DNA from: a virus
Direction: 5' to 3' (one strand)
Virus record (IMG/VR): IMGVR_UViG_3300038656_000194
Coordinates: 1-21,608 of that record
DNA: 21,608 bases
Shown: one piece after another, positions 2,581 through 8,230 of the stretch
How positions within the stretch are numbered: the first letter of the stretch is position 1
Layout: every line of letters starts with the position of its first letter
The notes under the pieces: generated by a model
Database searches by the model: none
Seen by the model: only the letters and a program-made list of their open reading frames with translations
Told to the model about the DNA's origin: nothing
Position numbers and translations under genes: made by a program

Positions 2581-3181
2581 GGTCTGGTTTAAATAATTTA
2601 AAAGGCAATAAATCTGCTTCCTCTCTTAAAGAATTTCGTTCTTTTTCGCTCAATTCTGGATATTCATCTATAAATCTTGCCAGCTTGTACCTATCTGGTT
2701 TTGGTAGGCCCAAGAATTCTGCATCTACAGAATACATTTTGAAGGGTTTGGCCAAAAGTTCTTCGGGAAACTCCATGGCATCTTCTTTATTGATTTCTAG
2801 TATTTCTGCGATGTCTTTTATTTTACCTAAAGCCATAACAACATCCTTGGAGCTTTCTGCAAGCTTCAGGGCGAGTGTTATTCCATTTTCTAGCTTTTCT
2901 GCTAATCTATTCTTGTGAGCTTGTTTGCTGACTTGCCGCTCTGCATAGAAATACTCCGTCATCATATCGTACCACTTGTTGGCGAGATAGTAAGAATAAC
3001 CATCTACTTTTTCCAAATGCTTTATAATGTGATCTCTACTTTGCCACCTCAAATACATGCCATGTATTTTCTCTAGCTTAGATAGTGTTTCCACGACCTC
3101 ACTAGGAGCGTCCTTACGGCTTCCATTGTGAATAAAGTCCTGTATGTCTTCTAGAGTGATATCTTCAATCTTCATGGCCAA
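2552..3181 (-). CDS. Helical protein preceding TerL, possible terminase accessory/small subunit
   Basis: A 209-aa, almost wholly alpha-helical, charged protein without membrane segments. Residues 1-70 form short amphipathic helices with IEDITLEDIQDFI and RDHIIKHLEKVDGYSYYLA; 85-135 contain a longer helix (KLENGITLALKLAESSKDVVMALGKI split by turns) that could mediate oligomerisation. The C-terminal end is proline-rich and acidic. I do not recognise the family. Its position directly before TerL, with a 29-base overlap and a 17-base overlap with the gene before it, argues for a role in the terminase complex. The start could also be the second methionine at 3175, which leaves an 11-base overlap. 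Assignment as small subunit is positional inference. Confidence 0.6.
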   Translation of the reverse strand: MAMKIEDITLEDIQDFIHNGSRKDAPSEVVETLSKLEKIHGMYLRWQSRDHIIKHLEKVDGYSYYLANKWYDMMTEYFYAERQVSKQAHKNRLAEKLENGITLALKLAESSKDVVMALGKIKDIAEILEINKEDAMEFPEELLAKPFKMYSVDAEFLGLPKPDRYKLARFIDEYPELSEKERNSLREEADLLPFKLFKPDHENPRLQEK

Positions 3182-3515
3182 ATAGTATGTCGTTCTTTAA
3201 ATTTTCTACCCTTTGCACTCTTGCTATTTTCTTAAATTCTTGTGCTGCAGTAATATTTCCACTTTTGGCATGGGTAAGAAGTCCTTCAGCAATAAGAAAT
3301 TCTGCCTCGAGCAACCCTTTGTCATAATGATGCCTTACTAGGGAGGTATTTATTTTCCACTCTTTTATAAAATGGGTCTCGTTGACACCCAAATACTTTG
3401 CTATGCTTCTTGGGGCATAGTTTGCAGCTGCTAGTGTTTCAATTTCGCTGTATTGCTCCTCCGATAGCCTTAGCTCTGATTTTAACATCGGTAAAAATCT
3501 TTCTTCTGAATTCAT
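3165..3515 (-). CDS. TerS-like helix-turn-helix protein
   Basis: A 116-aa protein read from the ATG at 3515 (MNSEERFL). The frame is open further upstream, but that part is antisense-like shadow of the PLD-like gene. Residues about 17-45 (LSEEQYSEIETLAAANYAPRSIAKYLGV, given here in segments) form an HTH with the turn at YAPRSIAKYLGV. It is followed by helices with YDKGLLEAEFLIAEGLL and KSGNITAAQEFKKIA. This order (HTH, then Y-x-K-G-x-x-E-A, then A-K-x-G-N-x-x-A) is typical of phage small terminase subunits that recognise pac/cos DNA. It overlaps the end of the PLD-like gene by 77 bases; a start at 3488 would reduce this to 50. It is probably TerS, with the 209-aa neighbour as an accessory protein. 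Confidence 0.68.
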   Translation of the reverse strand: MNSEERFLPMLKSELRLSEEQYSEIETLAAANYAPRSIAKYLGVNETHFIKEWKINTSLVRHHYDKGLLEAEFLIAEGLLTHAKSGNITAAQEFKKIARVQRVENLKNDILFGHED

Positions 3516-4059
3516 AAGTTTCTTTTGAATTATAAAATAGGTACTGCTCGTAGTGGGCATTTTCACTATGATTTCCAGATCCTTCAATACCAAAATAAGC
3601 ATCTTGCGTCTTAATAAGTGTGACTTTGGCATGTGACCAGGAATAGTTGACAATAAAATTTGCTCTACTACTTACCTGGGCTGCTAGGAGCTCCATAGTG
3701 GTAGGATTTCTTTTAATAAGAGAATCTGAAATCATTAAAGTGATTTGGTCGCAGTAGCCCTTATCGTACAGTTCTATCAAGGCGTCTATAACCCTTCTAC
3801 TTATAGAATATGTACAAATGTAAAGATGCTGTATATTATGATTTTGAGCTATAAAGGGGATAAAAGTAAACGCATTAAAAGAGTTGTCTGTTTGCAAAAA
3901 AAAGAACTCTTCCACAGTAGGAAGCCTTTTGAGATCTTTGTCCAGATGGGCTATTTTTTCAAAATGCTTATTGATGTATTTGGACTTAAAGACAGAAGAC
4001 ATCTCATCTTTCGCCTCTTCTTTTGGCAGTTGCTGCAAATCAAAGAATCTGTTTTTCAT
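3439..4059 (-). CDS. Phospholipase D-like (HKD) domain protein in the packaging operon
   Basis: A 206-aa soluble protein. The C-terminal half has the PLD/Nuc-type active-site pattern: H143-x-K145 in SWSHAKVTLI, an acidic D153 and GSGNHSEN (160-167). The H-K spacing and the GSGN match the HKD signature. The K-to-D gap is seven residues, not four, so the Asp position is atypical. One HKD motif per chain implies a dimer, as in bacterial Nuc-type endonucleases. The preceding region (LYICTYSISRRVIDALIELY) resembles the first beta-strand and helix of the PLD fold. It lies between the 138-aa reading frame (20-base overlap) and the TerS-like gene (77-base overlap). A nuclease or DNA-end-processing role in packaging is inferred; the substrate is unknown. 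Confidence 0.72.
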   Translation of the reverse strand: MKNRFFDLQQLPKEEAKDEMSSVFKSKYINKHFEKIAHLDKDLKRLPTVEEFFFLQTDNSFNAFTFIPFIAQNHNIQHLYICTYSISRRVIDALIELYDKGYCDQITLMISDSLIKRNPTTMELLAAQVSSRANFIVNYSWSHAKVTLIKTQDAYFGIEGSGNHSENAHYEQYLFYNSKETYEFRRKIFTDVKIRAKAIGGAIQRN

Positions 4060-4456
4060 TGAGCTTAGTTTTTAGAAGTTGGCGTTTAGTCTCTTTTAAT
4101 TTTAAGTTTCTAAGAGCCTCTTCATCTAGAGGATCTACTTTTAGTTTAGTCCTTAACCTAGAGATTTGAGAACTCATATTTTTGTAGAGCTTCAGGGCGT
4201 CTAGATCACACATATTAGTAATGCCAGCCCTAAGGTTTTCATCGTCAAAAATAGAATGCTTACCCAATATCTCCCCTTTCTCCTGGTAATGCAAAAGCTC
4301 ATTAAATGCCAATTGATTTTCTTGATACGCCAAGACTATACTTTGGGCAATTTTAAAAGAATCCTCTGGGCTAAAAGATTTATTTTCTAGATCTAGAACA
4401 AGTTTTTTTCTATTCTCATTTACAAATATAAAAGCCGAAATCATATCCGAGGTCAA
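4040..4456 (-). CDS. 138-aa reading frame, probably the -1 frame extension of the upstream gene
   Basis: Conventional translation would begin at TTG 4456 or at ATG 4444. However, the frame stays open upstream to 4540 and the extra codons look like real protein (RSIRELFPFLNKPNVPDKLK immediately precedes residue 1), with no ATG, GTG or TTG available there. The open stretch begins exactly at a run of nine A (minus strand) near the end of the 170-aa gene, so the simplest reading is a -1 shift from that gene. The visible product is helical and charged: a coiled-coil-like C-terminus (RLRTKLKVDPLDEEALRNLK and beyond) and no membrane segments. The family is not recognised. It overlaps the PLD-like gene by 20 bases. 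It may be a structural or packaging protein made as a fusion, or a gene split by a homopolymer error. Confidence 0.6.
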   Translation of the reverse strand: MTSDMISAFIFVNENRKKLVLDLENKSFSPEDSFKIAQSIVLAYQENQLAFNELLHYQEKGEILGKHSIFDDENLRAGITNMCDLDALKLYKNMSSQISRLRTKLKVDPLDEEALRNLKLKETKRQLLKTKLNEKQIL

Positions 4457-4509
4457 AATCTTGAGCTTGTCCGGAACGTTCGGCTTATTAAGAAATGGAA
4501 ATAGCTCTC

Positions 4510-5022
4510 TTATGCTTCGTTGGCCAAGCTTTTTTTTTGCTCAGTCAAAAATGCTTTAAGCGTTTCTGCCCTTTTGTTTGGAAAATCGATATTAAGCTCG
4601 TTGGCTAAACCAAAAGCAAGTTTTTTAATATCGTTGTATTCTGCATTTTCGATATCGATAACTTTAAGCTGTTGATTGTACTCCTCAAGTTGTAACTTGT
4701 CTTCCTCTTCTTCTTTATCCGCCTTAGTTTCTTCTACTTCTTTTTCTTCTGAATTGGAATCGTCTTGACTTGGAGCAGGAGCTTTTTTAGCCGGTGTTTT
4801 TTCAAACGCATTCAGATCTGCCAGTGATATGCTGTAAGCTTTTTTGACATCGTAGACGATAGCTTTTAAGTTCTTGTCTGAGTAGCCCACTCTATTGTAA
4901 TGCGCGGTAAGTGCAAAGTTTTTCACTGGGGCTTGATTGAGCGCCATAAGCAACGTGGAGAACTTTTGTCTCTTGTCTTGTTTTTCATCCCTTAGGATAC
5001 TTACTACTTTTTTCTTTTCCAT
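4510..5022 (-). CDS. 170-aa protein with acidic linker and C-terminal HeH/SAP-like domain
   Basis: First gene of the packaging operon. Residues 1-75 are a mixed alpha/beta N-terminal part. About 76-112 form a low-complexity linker rich in Ala, Pro, Lys, then Glu and Asp (EEKEVEETKADKEEEEDK). Residues 125-165 (YNDIKKLAFGLANELNIDFP, then NKRAETLKAFL) look like a HeH/SAP/Rho-N-type helix-extended-helix fold, as found in small proteins near the capsid genes of Mu-like and Bacteroidota phages. Near its end nine consecutive A (4530-4538) make the codons CAA AAA AAA AGC. Slipping back one base would skip the stop at 4510 and enter a 165-codon open frame, giving a 327-aa fusion. It is transcribed from the promoter at 5060-5095. 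Confidence 0.65.
   Translation of the reverse strand: MEKKKVVSILRDEKQDKRQKFSTLLMALNQAPVKNFALTAHYNRVGYSDKNLKAIVYDVKKAYSISLADLNAFEKTPAKKAPAPSQDDSNSEEKEVEETKADKEEEEDKLQLEEYNQQLKVIDIENAEYNDIKKLAFGLANELNIDFPNKRAETLKAFLTEQKKSLANEA
4530..4538 (-). promoter_or_regulatory. A9 slippery run, possible -1 recoding site
   Basis: On the minus strand CAA AAA AAA AGC is followed by CTTGGCC; the run is nine A. In the zero frame the gene stops 18 bases after the run. After a -1 slip the reading is CAA AAA AAA AAG CTT GGC and stays open to 4040. A weak 4-bp stem (GCTT/AAGC) follows directly. Ribosomal slippage, RNA polymerase slippage and a homopolymer sequencing or assembly error would all look the same here. 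Confidence 0.45.
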
Positions 5023-5100: not shown

Positions 5101-5131
5101 AAAAGCCACTACAGAATGTGTAGTGGCTTTT
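5101..5131 (-). terminator. Rho-independent-type terminator of the head operon
   Basis: A perfect 12-bp stem: AAAAGCCACTAC (5101-5112) pairs with GTAGTGGCTTTT (5120-5131) around a 7-base loop, with a T-run on the minus strand leading into TTGG. It lies 19 bases beyond the stop of the 270-aa gene and directly upstream of promoter A, so it separates the head and packaging operons. The symmetry allows function in both directions. Confidence 0.85.
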
Positions 5132-5149: not shown

Positions 5150-5962
5150 CTATGAACGCGAACGCTCAATTAAGAACGTATCTGTTCCTGCGATAAACAC
5201 CTCGAAGGTGATTCTAGCATTGTCCAGACCGATAAAGCTCGTTCCATCTTTAAGAAGAAACTTAGCGTCTGTTCCTGCAGCATCAGAAATAACTGCTGGA
5301 TCTGCACCACCGCCACCTATAACGCTTACAAAGGTTCCAGAAGTAAGATCGAAATCTGTAATACCTACAGATTCACCAGATGAAGAGCTTGGTAGTTTTA
5401 CCAGGGCACCATTGGCGATTAAGAATTCTAGATCTACAGCTGCAGCTTCAAAAACATTAGCAACAGGATCTGGTCCAGCAAATAACCCAGGCATAAGATT
5501 ATCGTTACTCATGTTGGAGAATGTGAGTGCGTAATGAGTGGTGTCGTTGTCCATAATAAGATTAGCTCTCATCTTAATTGGCGCAAGTAAAGAACCAATT
5601 ACACTTTTTAGTGCAGAACCACCGCCAAAAAGAACAATCACCTCGATATCCATTTGTCCACCAATAAATTCTCTTATTTCTAAACCATCCCCAGGGAATC
5701 GTGTAGAAAGTGTTTTTTGAATGCTCGCGGCATCCTCATCTCCATCAGTTTCAAAACCGAAGTTTTGAAAAGAACCTGTATTGTACATTTTAAAGGGTTC
5801 TTTTCCTTGCTTCATCTCAAATAATCCTTCTAGCAAAACCCCTAAAGCATTAGCTTGAGGTGCTGAAGCAATATCTTCAACTTTCATTATAGTAATGAAA
5901 GGCGACTTAGCAACTGGTCCTCCTGGACTAGATTTCTGTCTGTCTTTATCTATTAATTTCAT
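5150..5962 (-). CDS. Phage structural protein, 270 aa, downstream of capsid
   Basis: I chose the ATG at 5962 (MKLIDKDRQKSSPGGPV) because the longer open frame to 5992 begins inside a terminator hairpin. The protein is soluble, rich in Gly, Ser and Ala and beta-prone. Residues 1-20 are basic and flexible. The middle contains FGGGSALKSVIGSLLAPIKM and ITFEVFIAGTD-type strands; the loop SVIGGGGADPAVISDAAGTD lies near the C-terminus. There is no signal peptide or membrane segment. It follows the capsid gene and is closed off by a strong terminator, so it should be made in quantity. A capsid decoration, head-completion or tube-like structural protein fits; I cannot tell which. Family not recognised. 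Confidence 0.65.
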   Translation of the reverse strand: MKLIDKDRQKSSPGGPVAKSPFITIMKVEDIASAPQANALGVLLEGLFEMKQGKEPFKMYNTGSFQNFGFETDGDEDAASIQKTLSTRFPGDGLEIREFIGGQMDIEVIVLFGGGSALKSVIGSLLAPIKMRANLIMDNDTTHYALTFSNMSNDNLMPGLFAGPDPVANVFEAAAVDLEFLIANGALVKLPSSSSGESVGITDFDLTSGTFVSVIGGGGADPAVISDAAGTDAKFLLKDGTSFIGLDNARITFEVFIAGTDTFLIERSRS

Positions 5963-5988
5963 TGTTTTTTGTGTGTTAAAAATTAAAA

Positions 5989-6012
5989 GCAAGGCGACTG
6001 GTGCCGCCTTGC
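5989..6012 (-). terminator. Hairpin terminator or attenuator after capsid gene
   Basis: GCAAGGCG (5989-5996) pairs perfectly with CGCCTTGC (6005-6012) around an 8-base loop. On the minus strand it is followed by TTTTAATTTTT. It lies in the 60-base gap between the capsid stop and the 270-aa start. It probably lets only part of the transcripts through, keeping capsid mRNA in excess, or it stabilises the 3' end. Confidence 0.75.
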
Positions 6013-6022
6013 CTATAAATTA

Positions 6023-8230
6023 TTATGCTATTGTTCTAGAGAATTCTGTAAATACTCCATCAATAAGAGTCAATACCAAAGTATCACCTGGCTTAACAAC
6101 CGCCTCTGTAACTACAGAAACATTTCCTGCAATATTATTTACAGTCAAGTTAGCTTCACCAGAGTTAAGCAGAGTTAATTTTTGCTGCTCTGTTCCATTT
6201 TCTATTCCTGTAAGGGTCGTTGCCTCACCATTAAAGATTTGTGTAATACCATCAAGTAGATCTACTGTAGCAGAATCGAAAGTGAAGTTTTCTGCAGGAG
6301 TATTTACTGCTTCTGTGGTTCTCTTAACTTCTCTAAGCGTAAGCCCAGCAGTAACCACCAAGGTTAATGTACCGCCAGAACTAAGATCGTAATCTGCGTT
6401 AGATGCCAAATCAAAATTTGCATTGTTTTTCACGCTAGACGTAACCCCAGATGTGTTTCCTCTTATTCTTATAGTTTGTCCTTCAAAAAGGTTGGCTTTT
6501 TCCAAAGTCGCAATGTCGGTTTCGAAACCAGGTACAATGCTTAAATTAGAATAAGTAACCTTCAATTTTCCAGACTTATCGTCATGAAAAGGAATGTAGA
6601 AATCGCTCTTGAAAGGGAAAACACCATTGGTCCATACGGTTTGCACCTTGAAGGCATCTGGATCATCATCTGTTACTTCTGTACCTAAGTGAATAAATGC
6701 ACAAGCAAACTTATAGTCTGCATGGCCATAGATAATTCTCTTAAGTCTCTCAAAAGTTAATAATCCTTTTTCGTTAGGGACATCTTCCATGATTTCGATA
6801 TTATCATCGAACGTAATAATGTGGACATTTGTACCATTAAGATCATGCAACGGCTCAATACGTATATTCTCGTAGTTCTCTATGGTGAGACGATCCTCTG
6901 ATGTGAAATCATTTTCCACACCTCTTAATTGTCTATATCTCGTTTTGTACCATCTCTCATGATCTTTTGGCATATAGTACACAAGATTGGAAGCTTCTTT
7001 GCTTTCTTCTTTTATATTTTTTTCAATAACAAGTTGTGCGTAATCCACGATGTTTTCTGGAGTTGGTAAACCAATAGAAGGCACTTTTACTTTCTTGTCT
7101 ATATAGACGCCTTTGTACAGCTGATAAAGTAAACCATTCTGGCGGTTAATAGCTCTACCGGCTACTGTAGCATCATCTGGTGTAGCAACATAAACGCCTT
7201 TTATAGCGGACATTCTATCCTCGGCCTTAGCTTTTTTCATAAGCTCTGTCACCAAAAACTGAACGAACGTCATCTTGTAAGGAGTGGATCCTTCCATGCT
7301 CATTATACCTTGTAACCAGCTTTTCTCATACTTTTGTAAATCGTCTCCTACCCATTCTAAATCGATACTAACATCAAATATTTCACGAGTTTCTGGCTGG
7401 ATTCTTTGGTTGTTTTTGGCTAACCAAGGCAATTTTCTTGCTTGTGTAATCTCGTCTGAAACTATTTTACCATCACTTATTCTGTCTTTTACACCAAACC
7501 TAGTTTGCCAAAAGCTTGGAAGCTCAATCATATCTCTGTGTAGAGATTCTATAGTGCTTGGGTTTTCTCTGTAGAAAAGCTCAACATCGCCATTAAGACG
7601 TTGCAGGTTGATCTCCCCAGCTGTGCCATCCCAAGAAGTTAGACTATTGGTAAGTCCAGCTGCTCTTTGGTTCCATGGTCTGCCTGTGAATTCGTTAAGA
7701 GCTTGGCCATCACCAAAAAGATGTGTGGCAGAGTGCTTTAAATTCTTCATATCTCCATTTTTATTAAGTGGAATCACTGGATCTGGCTCAGGATCTTCTA
7801 TGAGCTTGGCGATCATTATGTCTGTCCTTTTCTGGTAGGCTTTAAAATCTGAGATAAGGCCTTCCAGACTTGCATCTGTAGATGGAGTTTCTCCATTCTT
7901 GGCTTTAGGCGTATCGCCTTTACCATCTTTTGCAGATCCTTTATTCGCCATATCGCGAATTTCTTCTTCGGTATAGCCAGAAGCTTCTAAACTTGCTTTA
8001 AATTCTGCTCGAGCATCTTCTATAAGCTTTTTACTCGATTCTTCGTCTAGTACGTTCTTTGCTTCTTTGTTTATGGCTTCAACCATAGTTTTAAAGTCTT
8101 TCTCACCGAGTGCCTCGATGATCTTATCTTCTTGGTCTTTTGAGAGATCCAATTTACCCTCTTTTATGGGGGTTTTTTGAATCCCCAAAATAGCCCAGAG
8201 AAAACCAATAGTCTTGCTTAATCGCTTCAT
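6023..8230 (-). CDS. Major capsid protein with N-terminal scaffold-like and C-terminal beta domains
   Basis: A 735-aa protein, nearly twice a typical HK97-type capsid. Residues 1-165 are highly charged and helical (KLDLSKDQEDKIIEAL, EEIRDMANKGSAKDGKG), as expected of a fused scaffolding (delta) region. About 170-540 form the presumed capsid core: aromatic, with WQTRFGVKD, LYQLYKGVYIDKKVKVP and NIRIEPLHDLNGTNVHIITF. About 545-735 are beta-rich, Thr/Asn/Gly-heavy repeats (LTLVVTAGLTL; KPGDTLVLTLIDGVF), like surface decoration domains in Bacteroidota phages. The gene directly follows the S49 protease, which presumably removes the N-terminal part during maturation. It is expressed from promoter B. 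Capsid identity rests on context and architecture rather than a diagnostic motif. Confidence 0.78.
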   Translation of the reverse strand: MKRLSKTIGFLWAILGIQKTPIKEGKLDLSKDQEDKIIEALGEKDFKTMVEAINKEAKNVLDEESSKKLIEDARAEFKASLEASGYTEEEIRDMANKGSAKDGKGDTPKAKNGETPSTDASLEGLISDFKAYQKRTDIMIAKLIEDPEPDPVIPLNKNGDMKNLKHSATHLFGDGQALNEFTGRPWNQRAAGLTNSLTSWDGTAGEINLQRLNGDVELFYRENPSTIESLHRDMIELPSFWQTRFGVKDRISDGKIVSDEITQARKLPWLAKNNQRIQPETREIFDVSIDLEWVGDDLQKYEKSWLQGIMSMEGSTPYKMTFVQFLVTELMKKAKAEDRMSAIKGVYVATPDDATVAGRAINRQNGLLYQLYKGVYIDKKVKVPSIGLPTPENIVDYAQLVIEKNIKEESKEASNLVYYMPKDHERWYKTRYRQLRGVENDFTSEDRLTIENYENIRIEPLHDLNGTNVHIITFDDNIEIMEDVPNEKGLLTFERLKRIIYGHADYKFACAFIHLGTEVTDDDPDAFKVQTVWTNGVFPFKSDFYIPFHDDKSGKLKVTYSNLSIVPGFETDIATLEKANLFEGQTIRIRGNTSGVTSSVKNNANFDLASNADYDLSSGGTLTLVVTAGLTLREVKRTTEAVNTPAENFTFDSATVDLLDGITQIFNGEATTLTGIENGTEQQKLTLLNSGEANLTVNNIAGNVSVVTEAVVKPGDTLVLTLIDGVFTEFSRTIA

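Follow-up and report, generated by a model that had tools for sequence, protein, structure and literature searches.

A split gene near the terminase genes

The window analysed here is a virus record from IMG/VR, 21,608 bases long, and the features of it described below all lie on the minus strand. A 170-aa zero-frame ORF (5022-4510), comprising an N-terminal helical domain, an acidic linker and a small helical segment (helices placed from an AF2 model of an intact homologue, L046), ends in a TAA stop at 4510-4512, six codons past a run of nine As at 4538-4530. The zero-frame codons from the run to the stop read GAG CAA AAA AAA AGC TTG GCC AAC GAA GCA TAA, so that the run begins within CAA, ends on the first base of AGC and contains an A_AAA_AAA heptamer in the zero frame. 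The C-terminal half lies in the -1 frame (4540-4040), which is open for 166 codons after a TGA and stops at 4040-4042; joining the two frames at the A9 run gives a 327-aa fusion. A preliminary description of this DNA had claimed the run ahead of the stop, the frame open from just after the TGA to 4040 and the 327-aa product of a -1 slip, all of which hold. Between the opening of the -1 frame and the LFPFL motif with which the C-terminal domain begins (FPFL, 4490-4501, conserved among homologues), the window contains no ATG, GTG or TTG in that frame; the first ATG is codon 33, and the ORF listing includes a TTG-started 138-aa ORF within the same frame. The arrangement exceeds chance, because no other A/T run in the 21.6 kb reaches nine, the two halves are adjacent in one PHROG profile and the split recurs in relatives (both below).

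Upstream of the split gene lies a 280-aa gene (5150-5992; phrog_19897) that is syntenic in the split lineages checked, and between the two is an intrinsic-terminator-like hairpin of 13 pairs followed by a T-rich stretch (5101-5131), given which a separate transcript may start with the split gene. On its other side lie genes for a PLD-like protein (3439-4059), whose ATG at 4059 is 17 bases before the stop of the long form, for a terminase-small-subunit-like protein (TerS; 3165-3653; phrog_20317, E 4e-21; weak match to phrog_309, E 0.015) and for the terminase large subunit (TerL; 892-2580; phrog_2, E 9e-12), which ends the syntenic block. The order 280-aa gene, split gene, PLD gene, TerS, 209-aa gene, TerL is largely kept in split lineages.

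Uninterrupted homologues and recurrence of the split

Both halves match the same profile, phrog_21662 (288 positions), the first at positions 4-100 (E 5e-4) and the second at positions 117-277 (E 1.5e-12). Its members from cultured Duneviridae (laban6-1 gp034, 328 aa; Ingeline gp47, 301 aa; Flavobacterium phage 6H, 288 aa) resemble the split gene in both halves and in genomic position, but are uninterrupted single ORFs that lack A9. They have the same neighbours as the split gene, save for Ingeline, in which the PLD-like gene that follows in most relatives is missing from this place (gp47/gp48; L406, 39807-39811). A single ORF spanning both halves was also found in ~110 IMG/VR or genome loci, and this finding that homologues without the A-run are one gene supports the fusion proposed in the preliminary description. 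The longest A-run in the 75 bases ahead of the motif was 3-8 in the 63 single-ORF homologues checked, although two single-ORF relatives added later (L300 and L416) do carry A9 near the junction. A survey of ~1,180 Bacteroidota genomes returned few copies and no split copy, two hits with short frames being left aside.

Relatives were gathered first through the neighbouring PLD gene and afterwards through the C-terminal domain, and ~130 distinct ones were classified. The same split was present in eight other IMG/VR contigs from different metagenomes, seven of which read A9 and one (L008) A8; ten As, which would restore one ORF and had been named as the reading that would undo the frameshift, were found neither in these eight nor in any other split gene. 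Split sequences make up 19 of the 129 on C-domain trees and fall into six groups there, with A9 in 17 of the 19 (the exceptions being lineage E, with A7, and L008). The site reads CAA AAA AAA AGC in lineage A, which includes the window, CAA AAA AAA AGT in lineage B (L039-L041), GCA AAA AAA AAG in lineage C (L099 and L113-L118), CTC AAA AAA AAA GCA in lineage D (L181/L271), GAA AAA AAG TAG in lineage E (L087), GAA AAA AAA AGC TAG in lineage F (L286), GAC AAA AAA AAA GCA in lineage G (L412) and GAA AAA AAA AGC AGC TAA in lineage H (L415), lineages G and H having been found by a pattern that requires A9, so that their A9 is no independent evidence on run length. In all splits the break falls just ahead of the C-terminal domain, and the C half is in the -1 frame in every split gene except that of L008.

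Well-supported branches of the C-domain trees force at least three changes of label between split and unsplit; for some of the independent origins suggested by these sequences, the support from the trees is modest. Lineages A and B both keep A9 despite 0.8-1 amino-acid changes per site, the run is kept across dS from 0.4 to saturation, and the split outlasts saturated synonymous divergence in A plus B and in C. On these comparisons, the putative slip site is conserved in relatives beyond chance. The A8 of L008 (IMGVR_UViG_3300028300_000053) lies ahead of locus position ~5010, where a simple -1 slip joins neither frame; its C half is almost identical to those of L005 and L007, and an assembly error, a variant or slippage of +2/-1 A are candidate explanations. 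L080 (1940-2766) was considered as another split and rejected, its -1 break lying early in the gene, elsewhere and without an A-run; an error in the sequence of an old metagenome is the probable cause.

The dN/dS of the C half was 0.07-0.25 in the -1 frame and, among close informative pairs, ~1-1.6 in a wrong frame (0.13 and 1.3, respectively, for the window and L009), which indicates that purifying selection is acting on the C half in the -1 frame. The constraint reaches the stretch before any start. Extended synonymous conservation around the site was confined to a few close pairs, with no general pattern.

Slippage as the probable source of a short and a long protein

The explanation that we favour, with a probability of about 0.87, is that one gene is read in two ways, slippage at the A-run giving rise to a short protein (N-domain) and a long one (N plus C). 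Ordinary decoding would halt six codons past A9 and yield the 170-aa short form, while in a fraction of events either RNA polymerase would add one A (an A10 mRNA) or the ribosome would step back one base on A_AAA_AAA; the slipped fraction would then read on in the -1 frame to give the 327-aa long form with the conserved C-terminal domain. The frameshift is supported because A9 is found in seven of the eight contigs and A10 in none, no start precedes the motif and homologues without the run are one gene. The frames, the conservation and recurrence of the site, the constraint on the C half and the absence of a separate start can be read in the sequence, whereas the production of both predicted forms, their ratio and the identity of the slipping machine are inferred. 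Of the programmed -1 frameshift originally proposed, the slip and the fusion are supported, with the refinement that RNA polymerase, rather than the ribosome, may be what slips. L008 counts against the favoured explanation, its A8 being unjoined by a simple -1 slip, and so does the fact that most relatives, with their single ORF, make the long form alone, which means that not every phage needs the short one. On the two-product reading, both forms of the protein would matter.

An alternative that retains slippage and gives it another meaning is saviour slippage, whereby an accidental indel in the A-run split the gene, just enough long form is made for the split to be tolerated and the short form is useless. 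Such rescue has been described in AT-rich endosymbionts (PMC5009743), and the lack of a short form in most relatives fits it. We nevertheless consider this unlikely, as an A9 to A10 change is easy and would restore the ORF, yet A10 is absent from split genes, which suggests that the split itself has been kept; furthermore, the split persists over saturated synonymous divergence in two sets of lineages (A plus B, and C), and a break at the same domain boundary in six groups would not be expected of accidents.

Explanations that dispense with slippage fare considerably worse. A reading of the halves as separate genes, with the second using a start of its own or reached by re-initiation, could appeal to the TTG-started 138-aa ORF, but is very improbable. 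A start belonging to the second protein had been named in the preliminary description as a refuting find, but none of the split lineages tested has an ATG, GTG or TTG ahead of the conserved [FY]xFL motif. The first ATG in lineages C-E lies more than 115 codons into the -1 frame, and the constrained region includes the stretch ahead of any start. Sequencing or assembly error, or a decayed gene, is less credible still. Homopolymers are error-prone and one contig has A8, but seven of the eight independent contigs agree on A9 and distant lineages share it, dN/dS is far below 1 and the adjacent PLD gene, which served as a control, is never broken (0 frameshifts in 110 distinct loci, 109 of them unbroken and one truncated where its locus stops). 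Taken over the whole set, these sequences refute error and decay.

Polymerase or ribosome as the slipping machine

RNA-polymerase slippage is efficient on nine As or Ts and is used by Thermus dnaX (PMC5009743). Across the split lineages, A9 occupies three codon phases (A/B/F/H; C; D/G) with nine As in each, and of 64 further A/T runs of at least seven in the same loci (slip sites left out), 2 reach nine. A shared downstream RNA structure was sought and not found in lineages A-D, where structure was absent or inconsistent and z is mostly -1 to +1 (exceptions being L118, -3.4, and L181, -2.2). Because the length of A9 is kept while no shared downstream structure was found, and because a heptamer would suffice for the ribosome, polymerase slippage is favoured, and RNA polymerase appears somewhat more likely to be the slipping machine in the A9 lineages. 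Lineage E (L087) has a downstream nested hairpin at 2488-2560 (-25.5 kcal/mol, z -4.55), whose first base lies 23 bases past the T of the TAG stop behind A_AAA_AAG. Its A7, the stop codon directly after the site and the high stability of the hairpin make the slip in this lineage look ribosomal.

A purely ribosomal slip throughout, for which A_AAA_AAA or A_AAA_AAG would act as a programmed -1 frameshift site in the manner of E. coli dnaX, is a reasonable contender, if somewhat short of probable. An in-frame A_AAA_AA[A/G] heptamer is present at every split site, lineage E has the features just described, and total frameshifting in E. coli reporters also rises with longer runs (10% with 7 As, 40% with 9 As and 63% with 11 As; PMC3711429). 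Conversely, A9 is kept in the other lineages though A7 already makes the heptamer, and two further points speak against it, namely the scarcity of nines among the other runs of the same loci and the failure to find structure downstream of the site consistently in A-D. The fullest form of the polymerase reading we put forward only tentatively: RNA-polymerase slippage on the conserved A9 would set the ratio of the two forms, having arisen several times in one family, and would be mirrored in at least one relative (L416) and replaced in one lineage by a ribosomal site with a hairpin.

The A9 of L416 (1945-1953) lies inside an uninterrupted long frame, and the other two frames stop after 1 and 5 codons. 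This is only suggestive of a mirror arrangement in which slippage would make the short form, as L416 was found by an A9-requiring pattern and quick stops are commonplace in such DNA. L300 may be a similar case: its A9 is located at ~codon 75 of a single long ORF, close to that domain boundary, and the -1 frame soon meets a stop. Together, genes with A9 and no shared hairpin, with A7 and a hairpin, and without interruption would offer a natural comparison of polymerase slippage and ribosomal frameshifting in phages.

Relation to known slippage systems

The dnaX gene, with its gamma and tau products, is like the split gene as read here: a shorter and a longer product come from one gene through slipping at an A-rich run, and the runs belong to the same length class. 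Its slip machinery differs by lineage (ribosomal -1 frameshifting in E. coli, transcriptional slippage on nine residues in Thermus thermophilus), as seems to be so here. Where dnaX consists of two ORFs, in Chlorobi and others (PMC3711429), its long form depends on the slip, like that of the split gene. The proteins are unrelated, however, the zero-frame product of dnaX is the long form in E. coli and Thermus, and the two products of the split gene, like their ratio, are predicted ones. The site described here appears to be a real, recurrent and conserved slippage site, and belongs to an already known class, that of programmed frameshifts making short and extended proteins. No report of frameshifting in Duneviridae or Flavobacterium phages was found in the open-access literature. 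If correct, slippage recurs at one domain boundary of a conserved protein of the head and packaging region in a widespread, Duneviridae-like family of Bacteroidetes phages, and gene callers would have reason to join the two halves.

Genomic position and possible function

Among dsDNA phages, the best-documented cases of programmed slippage are tail chaperones and some capsid genes, and the preliminary description had likened the split gene to G/GT of lambda. Both are phage structural-region genes with a -1 slip near the end of the short ORF that leads to an extended form, but the slip sites and the C-terminal extensions differ. This logic of a short plus an extended form holds, whereas the tape-measure position and homology to known chaperones are absent: the tape measure gene lies beyond the terminase and portal genes in Ingeline and far from gp034 in laban6-1, a 1290-aa ORF stands in its place ~14 kb downstream of the split gene in a close relative, and Pfam, PHROG and Foldseek searches gave no likeness to G/GT-type proteins in sequence or fold. 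A tail assembly chaperone is therefore ruled out by position (the gene does not adjoin the tape measure gene) and by the absence of chaperone homology in the searches made. Because the gene sits between the capsid genes and the terminase, the two proteins would serve in assembling the head or packaging the DNA.

In the AF2 model of an intact homologue the whole chain is helical and falls into an N domain, a small segment in the middle and a C domain that is long. Foldseek searches of this model against PDB and BFVD gave nothing significant, and the only Pfam matches, in 56 homologues and in the N halves of split genes, were weak ones of coiled-coil type, so that these searches yielded no homologue with a known function. 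A HeH/LEM-like reading of the segment ahead of the A-run, suggested by eye and by three predicted helices, was set aside, as no profile supports it.

Since the PLD start codon lies inside the end of the long frame, only ribosomes making the long form would arrive there, and slippage could in this way be coupled to PLD translation; if so, the slip may also determine how much PLD and terminase is expressed. In L286, the TerL match is on the strand opposite to that of the split gene and PLD gene, unlike in the other lineages. In the window, a 735-aa protein (6023-8230) occupies the place of the major capsid protein, and its C-terminal end weakly matches the C-terminal beta-sandwich domain of a phage depolymerase (E 3.5e-4, short of the Pfam cut-off).
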